A stretch of DNA of 64,000 nucleotides from Haloarcula mannanilytica (GTDB taxonomy: Archaea; Halobacteriota; Halobacteria; Halobacteriales; Haloarculaceae), in the NCBI RefSeq assembly GCF_005406125.1, contig NZ_BIXZ01000002.1, positions 310,001 to 374,000 on the forward strand. The letters are read 5' to 3'. Positions 36,437 through 41,508 of this stretch are shown one piece after another; the first letter of the stretch is position 1; each line of letters begins with the position of its first letter. The notes beneath the pieces were generated by a model. The model saw only the letters and a program-made list of their open reading frames with translations. It was not told the DNA's origin and ran no database searches. The position numbers were made by a program, and so were the translations under genes.

Positions 36437-36454
36437 CACACGAACGTTCGTGTG
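36437..36454. promoter_or_regulatory. Perfect 18-bp palindrome at the DJ-1/PfpI gene start (operator candidate)
   Basis: cacacgaacgttcgtgtg is a perfect palindrome and begins at the base next to the ATG (36436). It lies between the TATA box (36460-36467) and the start codon of a leaderless transcript, so a bound dimer would block initiation. Confidence 0.7.
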
Positions 36455-36459
36455 CGATC

Positions 36460-36467
36460 CTTATAAG
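36460..36467 (-). promoter_or_regulatory. TATA box for the DJ-1/PfpI gene
   Basis: cttataag, itself palindromic, is centred about 27 nt from the ATG at 36436. Confidence 0.6.
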
Positions 36468-36704
36468 CGGCCGTTCGGTGGTCGGCGAAGCGAGATCGGT
36501 CAAGCGAACGGTCCGGTCGTCTTGCAGCCATGCCACGCCGCCTATGCATCGATATCGAAGGTCAGGCGAGGGCGCTGCCGGGAGTGTCGCAACTCTGTTG
36601 TCATAGCGGAAACGTTTAACCCCACTGAGCAGCAAGCCGCTGAGTACAGATGGACAGCCCACTGCAGCAGGTTTCGCGGCTGTCATAGACCGATCTATTA
36701 TACC

Positions 36705-37403
36705 ATGGCAGACATCGAAGAGAGCGTTTCAGGCTTCAAGACGCAGGGTGGCTGGGTCGACATCGTCGAGCACGGCGAGCGCATCACGCAGGCGCTGAAA
36801 GACATCGCTTCGGGCGAAGATGTCGACGAGGACGCCCTCAGTGAGTTCGACAAGTGGCGACCCAAGAGCCACGAGCGACTGGACGAGGATGTCAACGAGA
36901 AAACCGCCGACCAGGCGAGCGTCGCCGAGGGCAAGGGGGAACAGGCCGGCAAGGGGCCGGACGAGGATCTCCAGACCGCCGGCGAGAAGCTCAGCGAGTC
37001 CTACGAGAACCTCGACGAGCCCGACGAGGCGATGGAGCGCTGGAGCGAGTCCGTCGACTACGTCGCCCGCGCGGCTGACTCCGCCAGCCGGAAGGCCCTG
37101 CGCAAGGTCGAGGACACCGTCTACCGCAACGTGATGACACAGATCGCGCCCTATTACTTCGATAACGACCTCATCAGCGCGAACCTGCGTCGTGTCGGCG
37201 ACGGCGACCGCCCCGAGTACGTCTTCGAGGTCAACGTCAACGACGACGACCTGAAGATGCGCGTCTCGAACAAACTCGCCGACTTCGAGCAGGCTGTCGA
37301 CCGCTGGCACGTCGACACCGAGAAGGTGACTGAGGCTGTCGAGGCCGCTGAAGGTGTGGATGCGGTCGAGACGGGCGAGGAGACCGATGCGAAGACGAAC
37401 TAA
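36705..37403 (+). CDS. DUF5828 family protein
   Basis: 232 residues from ATG at 36705 (MADIEESVSGFKTQGGWVDI); a longer frame upstream encodes Arg/Cys-rich sequence and is rejected. Highly acidic, largely helical, with a central low-complexity part ('EKTADQASVAEGKGEQAGKG') and a C-terminal domain ('VYRNVMTQIAPYYFDNDLISANL'). I recall it as haloarchaeal DUF5828. Function unknown. Its last codons and stop recur in degenerate copies downstream. Confidence 0.8.
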   Translation: MADIEESVSGFKTQGGWVDIVEHGERITQALKDIASGEDVDEDALSEFDKWRPKSHERLDEDVNEKTADQASVAEGKGEQAGKGPDEDLQTAGEKLSESYENLDEPDEAMERWSESVDYVARAADSASRKALRKVEDTVYRNVMTQIAPYYFDNDLISANLRRVGDGDRPEYVFEVNVNDDDLKMRVSNKLADFEQAVDRWHVDTEKVTEAVEAAEGVDAVETGEETDAKTN

Positions 37404-37959: not shown

Positions 37960-38622
37960 ATGTCGACCCACACGTTCAGGGAACTGGAGACGGCCGCCTA
38001 CTGTCCGCGAAAGCTCTATTACCGTCGCCGCGACGGCGCAAGCGAGATTCCCGACGAGGTCGAATCGGTCCGCCGGCTGGCCCGCGACTACGAGCGACTG
38101 CTGACCGACGACGCCGCCCTGCTGGCCGCGCCCATCGAAGTCGGTCCCGACGAGTACCGCGACCGACTCAGAGGGCTGCGGGACCGACTCGCCGACTGGG
38201 ATGCGCTGGTCGCGCCAGCGGCGACCGACGCGTATCTTGAGGGGAAGGACGCACGCGGTATCGCACACAAAATCGTCGCCGGGCGGGACGGTCCGGCCCC
38301 GTCGCTCGTGTTCGCCGGTCGGCCCCCGGAGGAGGGTGTCTGGGAACCACAGACCGTGCGGCTGGTCGCCGCAGCGAAGGCGCTGTCCTGGGAGCGCGAG
38401 CGGGAGGTCGGGCACGCCTACGCGGAGTATCCGGCCGACGGCGTGATTCGCCGTATCGACGTGAACGCGCGACGAGCCGGCGTCTACCGCAGGGCAGTTC
38501 GGACCGCCGACAGCATCGACGGCCCGCCGGGACGGGTGCGCAACGACGCGAAATGCAAGCCCTGTGCGTTCAGCGACGACTGCGGCGTCAAAACGCGGTC
38601 GCTGCGCTCGATGCTCCGCTGA
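37960..38622 (+). CDS. Cas4/RecB-like Fe-S protein, not near CRISPR
   Basis: 220 residues with Cas4-type cysteines: C15 in 'ETAAYCPRKLYYRRR' and C199, C202, C208 in 'AKCKPCAFSDDCG'. These would hold a 4Fe-4S cluster as in Cas4/AddB-like nucleases. The usual PD-(D/E)xK residues are not clear; 'LVFAGRPPEEGVWEPQTVRLVAAAKAL' takes the place of the D...ExK...QxxxY region. It could be an inactive or divergent nuclease. No cas1, cas2 or repeat array is in the window. Confidence 0.65.
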   Translation: MSTHTFRELETAAYCPRKLYYRRRDGASEIPDEVESVRRLARDYERLLTDDAALLAAPIEVGPDEYRDRLRGLRDRLADWDALVAPAATDAYLEGKDARGIAHKIVAGRDGPAPSLVFAGRPPEEGVWEPQTVRLVAAAKALSWEREREVGHAYAEYPADGVIRRIDVNARRAGVYRRAVRTADSIDGPPGRVRNDAKCKPCAFSDDCGVKTRSLRSMLR

Positions 38623-38652: not shown

Positions 38653-39237
38653 TCAGTCCCGGTCTGCCAGCCACGACTCGACGGCGTCGGCGTGTGCGCC
38701 GCGGCGGTGTATCGTCCCGCTGTCGACGTTCACGACCGTCGAGCCGGTCCCGCCGTCGGTCTGGCCGGCGTCGAGGACCACCGCGGCCCGTTCGCGGATA
38801 GCGTCGAGGTCGTCGATGGATTGTGCGCTCGGGTTCCCGGAAATGTTGGCGCTCGTTGCAGTGAGCGGTCCGGTCTCGGCAAGCAGTTCGAGCGCGAGGT
38901 CGTGGTCGGGAATGCGAATCCCGACGCGGTCCCGGCCATCGACAAGCACGTCTGGAACCGCGTTGCGGCGCTTGACGACGACGGTGACCGGACCGGGGAG
39001 GAACTCCCGCATGAACGCCAGTTCGCGGTCGCTCAGACGCGTGTACTCGCGTGCGGAGTCAACGTTGGGGACGGCCATCGACACCGGCTTGTCGCGCTCG
39101 CGGCCTTTCGCGTCGAACACGCGTTCGACGGCGTCGGCATCGAGCGCGTCCACGCCGAGCCCGTACACCGTCTCCGTCGGGTAGACGACCAGCTCTCCGT
39201 TACGGATCGCCGCCGCGGCCTCGTCGACTGTCGCCAT
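38653..39237 (-). CDS. Sua5/YrdC/YwlC threonylcarbamoyl-AMP synthase
   Basis: 194 residues from ATG at 39237 (MATVDEAAAAIRNGELVVYP). 'VYPTETVYGLGVDA', 'KGRERDKPVSM', 'PGPVTVVVKRR', 'VGIRIPDHDLALELL' and 'TATSANISGNPSAQ' match the YrdC fold. Makes threonylcarbamoyl-AMP from Thr, bicarbonate and ATP for t6A37 of tRNAs. Lacks the extra Sua5 C-terminal domain. Last gene of a tight minus-strand operon, 2 nt after the Prx-like gene. Confidence 0.92.
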   Translation of the reverse strand: MATVDEAAAAIRNGELVVYPTETVYGLGVDALDADAVERVFDAKGRERDKPVSMAVPNVDSAREYTRLSDRELAFMREFLPGPVTVVVKRRNAVPDVLVDGRDRVGIRIPDHDLALELLAETGPLTATSANISGNPSAQSIDDLDAIRERAAVVLDAGQTDGGTGSTVVNVDSGTIHRRGAHADAVESWLADRD

Positions 39238-39239
39238 CG

Positions 39240-39749
39240 TCAGAGTTGGGCTTCGACCGCGTCGTAGTCGGGGAAGTCGGGCCATTCCTCGGCGACCCAC
39301 GCGTACTCGACGGTCCGGTCGCTATCGAGGACGAACACCGATGGGCGCGGCTCCTCGATGCCGGCCATCCCGTCGAGGTCCATGTCGATGTTGTACTGCT
39401 GTGCGACGCCGTTTGCCGGGTCCGAGAACAGCCGGTGGTTCCCCTCGATCTCCCGCTCTTCAAGCAGTTGCTTGTGTTCGTAAGGCGTCGAGATCGAGAC
39501 GCCGACGACGGTGGCCTGCTCGTGCCACGCGCGGTCGCGGATCTCGTTCCAGATGTACGTCGCCGGGAATGCCCCGTCCATCGGGTGGAACACGAGCACG
39601 ACCTGCTCGCTGTCGGCACACAGCGACGAGAGCGACTCGTCCGCCCAGAACTCGTCGTTGACGAGCGGGCGCGTGAAATCCGGCGCAGTATCGCCTTCTT
39701 CGGGGTGGTCGACCGGGTCGAGGTCGACGACCTCGAAATCGAGTTCCAT
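39240..39749 (-). CDS. Peroxiredoxin-fold protein lacking the peroxidatic cysteine
   Basis: 169 residues with an AhpC/TSA thioredoxin fold: 'GDTAPDFTRPLVNDEFW', 'VVLVFHPMDGAFPATYIWNEI', 'VVGVSISTPYEHKQLLEE', 'LFSDPANGVAQQYNI' and 'RPSVFVLDSDRTVEYAWV'. The catalytic 'P-x-C-T' position reads P62-A-T64-Y, so the peroxidatic Cys is replaced by Thr. The only Cys is C44. Its ATG overlaps the stop of the glutaredoxin-like gene (ATGA 39749), so the two are coupled. Peroxidase activity is doubtful; a redox or binding role is possible. Confidence 0.85.
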   Translation of the reverse strand: MELDFEVVDLDPVDHPEEGDTAPDFTRPLVNDEFWADESLSSLCADSEQVVLVFHPMDGAFPATYIWNEIRDRAWHEQATVVGVSISTPYEHKQLLEEREIEGNHRLFSDPANGVAQQYNIDMDLDGMAGIEEPRPSVFVLDSDRTVEYAWVAEEWPDFPDYDAVEAQL

Positions 39750-40024
39750 CAGGCCACACCTCCTGCTGTCCCTTCGTCGCCGTAGGTCCGCTCCAGATAC
39801 GCGACGATGTTCGCGCTCTCGGACATCGTCACGCCGGTGTTCTCGTCAACGATGGCCGGGACGGTCCGCTTCCCGGACAGTCGCTTGACCACGTCGCGGT
39901 CCGAATGCATCGGCTCGACGAACCGCGAGTGATAGTCGAGGTCGTATTCGTCCAGTTTGCGGACGACGCGTTCACAGAACGGACACGCCTGCAGCCGATA
40001 CAGCGTGATGTCGGACTCGCTCAT
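39749..40024 (-). CDS. Glutaredoxin-like / GST N-terminal domain protein
   Basis: 91 residues from ATG at 40024 (MSESDITLYRLQACPFCERV). CPFC active site, cis-Pro 'KRTVPAIVDENTG' and 'MSESANIVAYLERTYG', which resembles the glutathione-binding 'ESxxIxxYL' of GST N-domains. Haloarchaea use gamma-glutamylcysteine rather than glutathione, so the thiol partner is an open point. First gene of the operon with the Prx-like protein and Sua5/YrdC. An upstream in-frame ATG gives a basic extension and is rejected. Confidence 0.88.
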   Translation of the reverse strand: MSESDITLYRLQACPFCERVVRKLDEYDLDYHSRFVEPMHSDRDVVKRLSGKRTVPAIVDENTGVTMSESANIVAYLERTYGDEGTAGGVA

Positions 40025-40122
40025 ACTCTGGGCGGGGATACGCGCGAAAGCCGGGTAAGGGCTTCGCTGGCGGCCCCTCCATGACAAGTCTTAATTCGCG
40101 GGCATTACAACTTCGACCGTTG

Positions 40123-41508
40123 ATGTCCCTCGACCCACCTGTGCTGTTTGAACTGCCGACAGCGTTCCTGCAGGGCGTCGAAGTCGTCGGCGTCCCGATA
40201 CCCCAGAACGTGGTACTCCTCGGCGGTATCGCCACGATTGTCCTCCTTATCGTCCTCTCGGCGTTCTTCTCGTCCTCGGAAATCGCGATGTTCTCGCTGC
40301 CCGCACACCGGACGGAGGCGCTCGTCGAGGACGGCGTTCCGGGTGCGAAGACACTCAAGCGACTCAAGGCGGACCCACATCGCCTGCTCGTGACGATTCT
40401 CGTCGGGAACAACCTCGTCAACATCGCGATGTCCTCCATCGCCACCGGACTCCTGGCGATGTACCTCTCCCAGGGCGAGGCTGTCGCCGTCGCAACGTTT
40501 GGCATCACCGCTATCGTCCTGCTGTTCGGCGAGAGCGCGCCAAAGAGCTACGCAGTCGAGAACACCGAGTCGTGGGCGCTCCGAATCTCCAAGCCGCTCA
40601 AGCTTGCCGAGAGGGTGCTGCTCCCGCTCATTCTCTTGTTCGACTACCTTACCCGCGTCGTCAACAAGATCACGGGCGGTCGCTCCGCCATCGAGACCTC
40701 CTATGTCACCCGCGAGGAGATACAGGATATCATCGAGACGGGCGAGCGCGAGGGCGTCCTCGACGAGGACGAACGGGAGATGCTCCAGCGCACGCTGCGG
40801 TTCAACGACACCATCGCCAAGGAAGTGATGACGCCCCGACTCGATATGACCGCCGTCGCCAAGGAAGCCTCCGTCGAGGAGGCCCTGGAGACGTGTATCC
40901 AGAGCGGCCACGCTCGCATCCCCGTTTACGAAGGAAGCCTGGACAACGTCATCGGCGTCATCCACATCCGCGACCTCGTTCGGGACCTCAACTACGGCGA
41001 GGCGCTGGCCAAGGACATGGACCTTGAGGACCTCATCGAGCCGACCCTCCACGTCCCTGAGTCAAAGAACGTCGACGACCTGCTGACCGAGATGCGGGCC
41101 GAGCGCCTGCACATGGTCATTGTCATCGACGAGTTCGGGACCACTGAGGGACTGGTGACGATGGAGGACCTGACCGAGGAGATCGTCGGCGAGATACTCG
41201 AAGGCGAGGAGGAAGAGCCAATCGAGTACATCGACGACGACACGGTCACAGTCAAAGGTGAGGTCAACATCGAGGAGGTCAACGAGGCGCTGGACTTGGA
41301 CCTGCCGGAAGGCGAGGAGTTCGAGACCATCGCCGGATTCGTGTTCAATCGCGCCGGGCGGCTGGTCGAGGAAGGCGAGACCATTACCTACGACGGCGTC
41401 GAGATCCGCGTCGAACAGGTGGAGAACACGCGTATCATGAAAGCTCGGGTCATTCGCCTCGAAGACGACGAGGCGGAGCCGGTCGATGCCGAAGAGGCCA
41501 CTGACTGA
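40123..41508 (+). CDS. CNNM/CorC (HlyC) family membrane protein with CBS domains
   Basis: 461 residues from ATG at 40123 (MSLDPPVLFELPTAFLQGVE); an ATG at 40081 is rejected since a TATA-like cttaattc overlaps it. DUF21 membrane domain (about 20-195; 'FFSSSEIAMFSLPAHR', 'GNNLVNIAMSSIATG'), a CBS pair (about 200-330; 'VMTPRLDMTAV', 'HARIPVYEGSLDNVIGVIH', 'DEFGTTEGLVTMEDL') and a C-terminal CorC_HlyC domain. Related proteins export Mg2+ or Co2+ or regulate them. Acidic loops suit high salt. Confidence 0.93.
   Translation: MSLDPPVLFELPTAFLQGVEVVGVPIPQNVVLLGGIATIVLLIVLSAFFSSSEIAMFSLPAHRTEALVEDGVPGAKTLKRLKADPHRLLVTILVGNNLVNIAMSSIATGLLAMYLSQGEAVAVATFGITAIVLLFGESAPKSYAVENTESWALRISKPLKLAERVLLPLILLFDYLTRVVNKITGGRSAIETSYVTREEIQDIIETGEREGVLDEDEREMLQRTLRFNDTIAKEVMTPRLDMTAVAKEASVEEALETCIQSGHARIPVYEGSLDNVIGVIHIRDLVRDLNYGEALAKDMDLEDLIEPTLHVPESKNVDDLLTEMRAERLHMVIVIDEFGTTEGLVTMEDLTEEIVGEILEGEEEEPIEYIDDDTVTVKGEVNIEEVNEALDLDLPEGEEFETIAGFVFNRAGRLVEEGETITYDGVEIRVEQVENTRIMKARVIRLEDDEAEPVDAEEATD

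Follow-up and report, generated by a model that had tools for sequence, protein, structure and literature searches.

The closest described systems join a peroxiredoxin (Prx) fold to a glutaredoxin (Grx). In Mycobacterium tuberculosis, the peroxiredoxin AhpE is reduced by the Grx-like mycoredoxin-1 (Mrx1) (PMC4360819), and in Haemophilus influenzae, PGdx/hyPrx5 unites a Prx and a Grx domain in a single polypeptide (PMC1361801). The archaeal BCP/PrxQ proteins provide a third point of reference, represented by the structures of Sulfolobus solfataricus Bcp4 (3hjp), S. tokodaii (2ywn and 4g2e), and Aeropyrum pernix (2cx3). The haloarchaeal thiol is γ-glutamylcysteine (γ-Glu-Cys) (PMC7278568).

Here we compare these systems with a locus in a stretch of 64,000 nucleotides from Haloarcula mannanilytica, referred to below as the window. 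Three adjoining genes lie on the minus strand, as a sequence-only reading of this DNA had proposed: a glutaredoxin-like gene (Grx, 39749..40024, 91 aa), a Cys-less peroxiredoxin-fold gene (Prx-like, 39240..39749, 169 aa), and a gene for a YrdC/TsaC/Sua5-family L-threonylcarbamoyladenylate synthase (YrdC, 38653..39237, 194 aa). Their Pfam and NCBIfam identities are Glutaredoxin/GST_N_3, AhpC-TSA, and TsaC/Sua5, respectively. Reading the junctions confirmed the 2-nt gap given earlier between Prx-like and YrdC. The claimed ATGA overlap of the first two genes was wrong, because their junction CCTGATGGA (39747..39751, minus strand) is a 1-nt TGATG overlap, in which the A is shared by the Grx stop codon and the Prx-like start codon. 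The trio is flanked by a divergent CNNM/CorC-family membrane protein gene (40081..41508, plus strand) and a convergent Cas4/PD-(D/E)XK-like protein gene (37960..38622, plus strand). Both are conserved as neighbors of the trio, one on each side, in distant haloarchaea, and we used them as synteny controls. A DUF5828 protein is also encoded near the trio (36450-37403, plus strand); in 13 of 64 distant loci, a match to it lies more than 1.2 kb off, on the Grx side of the pair.

The Prx-like protein contains an AhpC-TSA domain (PF00578, 58.6 bits against a cut-off of 26), and its predicted model adopts the Prx fold (pLDDT 94.9, pTM 0.91). The solved structures nearest to this model are Bcp4 (Z 21.8, 1.8 Å over 149 residues) and then AhpE (Z 21.1). 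The PxxxT/SxxC motif that bears the peroxidatic Cys of peroxiredoxins is not present; alignments with S. tokodaii 2ywn, A. pernix 2cx3, and a Cys-bearing paralogue from the same genome (L002) place Ala63 in the Cys slot. The sequence-only reading had rightly noticed the missing Cys and had put Thr64 in its place, which is off by one: Thr64 is the next residue, and the same alignments rule it out as the Cys substitute. Across 131 unique homologues, slot 63 is occupied by Ala (103), Thr (12), Gly (8), Ser (7), or Cys (1), and the absence of the Cys, which had been flagged as a point to check, thus holds in 130 of them. Cys44, the sole Cys of the window protein, is not conserved among homologues. 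The slot of the active-site Arg is retained, with Arg135 aligning to the Arg of both 2ywn and 2cx3 and an Arg present in 128 of the 131 homologues. Peroxidase activity is not expected of a protein that lacks the Cys. Three Prx-like proteins of one genus (L122-L124, g33) have inserts near position 75, which split their database matches.

The loop around the lost Cys has been remodeled and yet is conserved (Met-57, Gly-59, Phe-61, and Tyr-65). Its mean column entropy is 1.10, compared with 1.24 elsewhere in the protein; by this measure, conservation of the loop at least equals that of the other positions, and the loop is not relaxed. In comparisons of near relatives, the dN/dS of the Prx-like gene was about 0.07-0.3, with similar values for Grx and YrdC, indicating that the gene is not decaying. 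The only homologue with a Cys in slot 63 (L091 in genome G045, PMIGSFVC) is nested in a quick tree within a supported group of 26. Because its position is among Cys-less sequences and two changes explain the Cys and non-Cys states, this Cys is apparently a derived regain.

Invariant residues of the family are Arg-27, Trp-35, Tyr-65, Asp-110, and Trp-151. Their number, together with the conserved remodeling of the Cys-slot loop, could be taken to mean that the Prx-like protein is itself a catalyst that uses these residues for a different chemistry, with the Grx as an accessory. However, Trp-151 and the Arg slot are also found in ordinary archaeal Bcp4-like sequences, and we know of no Cys-independent redox chemistry in the Prx fold. 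We therefore consider such a catalyst improbable.

The adjacent gene encodes a protein with a Grx/GST_N domain (PF00462, 48.6 bits against a cut-off of 22.9). Its CPFC motif comprises Cys14 and Cys17, and a CPxC motif, either CPFC or CPYC, is kept in all 127 ungapped unique rows of the orthologue alignment. The VP and ES motifs are likewise conserved among orthologues and correspond in the window protein to T54-V55-P56 and E69-S70. In the GST/Grx fold, these two motifs contact the γ-glutamyl part of glutathione. Taken with the thiol chemistry of haloarchaea, they suggest that the Grx would act as a thiol-dependent oxidoreductase with γ-Glu-Cys. The earlier proposal that the CPFC protein is the redox-active member of the two is supported.

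The Prx-like gene was found in 285 of 292 genomes of the class Halobacteria (about 98%), a sample that is shared in part between searches and whose members are not independent by phylogeny. Outside this class, no copy was found at a threshold of E 1e-12 in a sample of 197 genomes from the phylum. Grx lies directly upstream of the Prx-like gene in 140/140 loci, with a spacing of -1 in 105 of them when gene starts are assigned by script. The seven genomes without the Prx-like gene are the same seven that lack a Grx orthologue at E 1e-30, and in none does the Grx occur alone; the one further genome missed by the Grx search (G021) has a divergent Grx adjoining its Prx-like gene (L103). With the relatedness of the genomes ignored, the hypergeometric probability of this joint absence is 2.4e-13. 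The seven genomes span five genera, and the pair is retained by other members of three of these. In two genomes, both from genus g52, Grx and Prx-like are fused in a single ORF (L106:2980-3789 and L159:2974-3798, minus strand) that encodes both Pfam domains in 269 and 274 aa. Both fusions are paralogous second copies located away from YrdC, the Cys slot is Ser in each (NWGGKS), and the fusion model has a pLDDT of 88.6 and a pTM of 0.74.

Together, co-inheritance, co-loss, a mostly 1-nt overlap, and occasional fusion show by comparative genomics that the two genes are coupled. Judged by gene content and order, the real unit is the Grx and Prx-like pair and not its link to YrdC. These data also bear on the idea of the Prx-like protein as a regulatory decoy that would compete with true Cys-bearing peroxiredoxins, either for the Grx or in forming oligomers. 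In favor of a decoy, several further AhpC/TSA proteins are encoded by this genome, close Cys-bearing paralogues included, and the Prx-like protein has retained the Prx fold along with the slot of the active-site Arg. Nevertheless, the Prx-like protein is strictly paired one to one, and fused, with a single Grx lineage; this favors a dedicated partnership over competition, and a decoy role seems doubtful to us.

A second, distant family of Cys-less Prx proteins, with 29-35% identity to the window Prx-like protein, is present in 54 of the 292 haloarchaeal genomes. A CPxC Grx adjoins the gene in 27 of 30 sampled loci, and Ala occupies the peroxidatic slot in 29 of these 30 loci. At L201:1428-1904 (plus strand; further members are L207-L236), the gene is divergent from a CPYC Grx. 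The family is marked by the motif GFxFSAIAxxWW and by an invariant Cys17 in LLCDGE, which lies away from the peroxidatic slot. Of the seven genomes that lack the first pair, two (G046 and G254) contain this second one.

The third gene of the trio encodes a TsaC/Sua5 protein (TIGR00057, 177.6 bits against a cut-off of 123.2) and is the only PF01300 gene in its genome. The sequence-only reading had taken the trio as a hint of a connection between oxidative stress and translation by way of tRNA t6A synthesis. In such a scheme, the redox pair would regulate or protect YrdC/TsaC and thereby make t6A synthesis responsive to oxidative stress. The gene order is indeed kept far beyond the genus: YrdC is encoded in the same direction and no more than 300 nt downstream of the pair in 114 of 140 loci, and the gap between Prx-like and YrdC is 10 nt or less in 48 of 119. 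In a further 47 of the 119, it exceeds 50 nt, which leaves room for a separate YrdC promoter. As a control, we examined the retention of window neighbors across 64 distant loci for which long flanking sequence was available. Grx was retained in all 64 and YrdC in 55; for the divergent CNNM gene and the convergent Cas4-like gene, the counts were 56 and 50. YrdC is therefore tied to the pair no more tightly than a gene that is unable to share its transcript. The pair stands without YrdC in nine of these loci, and where YrdC was absent, no recurring alternative downstream partner was seen by eye. Conversely, YrdC is retained in all seven genomes without the pair, three of which (G020, G093, and G104) keep the order CNNM-YrdC-Cas4-like intact with the pair missing. 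The pair thus relocates, duplicates, fuses, and is lost independently of YrdC. Because the linkage is at background level and the pair moves without YrdC, gene order lends no support to a mechanism leading from oxidative stress to t6A, and after this control, we no longer take the linkage of the trio to indicate a role in t6A synthesis.

What remains in favor of a stress response acting on translation comes from Haloferax volcanii. In the presence of hypochlorite (NaOCl) but not otherwise, OxsR shows ChIP-seq peaks upstream of “HVO_0251 glutaredoxin” (PMC9426492), and Sua5, HVO_0253, is essential (PMC3017900). These genes are two locus tags apart, and from this numbering, we infer that HVO_0251-0253 is the H. 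volcanii trio. The OxsR binding is a lead to a possible regulatory link of the pair to Sua5. The CG-rich motif of OxsR was present upstream of Grx in only 7 of 140 loci and is not conserved. A conserved promoter-like element, GCGAAGCCCTTA (40056..40067, minus strand), lies 43 nt before the Grx ATG in the window; the pattern GCGAMGNNNTTA occurs upstream of Grx in 50 of 140 loci, almost always within -37 to -43 and at about -38 or -43 relative to the start codon, with 0.008 occurrences expected per 120 nt. Overall, we regard control or protection of YrdC by the pair as very unlikely. The openly licensed literature yielded no papers on HVO_0252 or on Cys-less archaeal peroxiredoxins, and by that literature, the pair is apparently undescribed.

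The explanation that we favor, tentatively and at a little short of even chances, is that the pair forms a two-protein thiol-disulfide module in which a dithiol Grx with the CPFC motif is docked on a non-catalytic adaptor with the Prx fold. The Prx-like partner would descend from a BCP/AhpE-like peroxiredoxin that was once reduced by a Grx, and it may have kept the Grx-docking face while losing the chemistry. As an adaptor, it would bring the Grx to client proteins or hold the clients, and the Grx would reduce their disulfides or mixed disulfides using γ-Glu-Cys. YrdC/TsaC would be a housekeeping neighbor that may often share a transcript with the pair, not a mechanism. This module is suggested by the invariant Grx adjacency, the co-absence, the fusions, and the second Cys-less family with its own Grx, along with the proximity of the Prx-like model to Bcp4 and AhpE, the reduction of AhpE by mycoredoxin-1, the presence of γ-Glu-Cys, the conserved loop, and the dN/dS values. 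Against it stand the restriction of the fusions to a paralogous copy in two genomes of one genus, the pTM of the fusion model, and the seven genomes that live without the pair; moreover, the Prx-like protein could have an unrecognized non-cysteine chemistry. In a broader and rather unlikely version, the two Cys-less Prx-fold families would be client-recognition subunits for dedicated Grxs in a general haloarchaeal two-part disulfide reductase, and an OxsR-controlled transcript may also set the expression of the essential Sua5 under hypochlorite.

A Cys-less Prx fold that occurs in about 98% of the sampled haloarchaeal genomes, always with its own Grx, points to a conserved non-catalytic use of this fold. 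The AhpC/TSA label given by domain annotation should not lead to the Prx-like protein being counted as a peroxidase. Nor does the conserved gene order of this region, taken alone, link the redox pair with tRNA modification. Compared with the TsaC/Sua5 family, including HVO_0253, the window YrdC is ordinary, a single-copy YrdC-domain protein above the TIGR00057 cut-off, and the only unusual thing about it is its neighbor.

Among the known systems, AhpE and mycoredoxin-1 resemble the haloarchaeal pair in combining a Prx fold with a Grx-like reductase that has a CxxC motif and is linked to a low-molecular-weight thiol, and the reduction of AhpE by mycoredoxin-1 suggests an ancestral Prx-Grx partnership. 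However, AhpE is a 1-Cys enzyme with its peroxidatic Cys present, whereas the haloarchaeal slot holds Ala, Thr, Gly, or Ser, and the haloarchaeal Grx partner is the adjacent gene and is co-lost. The L106 and L159 fusions recall PGdx in joining the two domains in one polypeptide; unlike PGdx, which is an active glutathione-dependent peroxidase, they have no peroxidatic Cys and so are not hybrids of the PGdx type. Their domain order is Grx-Prx, opposite to that of PGdx. The archaeal BCP/PrxQ proteins give the best sequence and structure matches of the Prx-like protein, with the Arg slot, Trp151, and the C-terminal region all aligning. The Prx-like protein differs from them in the replacement of PxxxTxxC (typically P56, A60, and A63) and in its strict partnership with a Grx.
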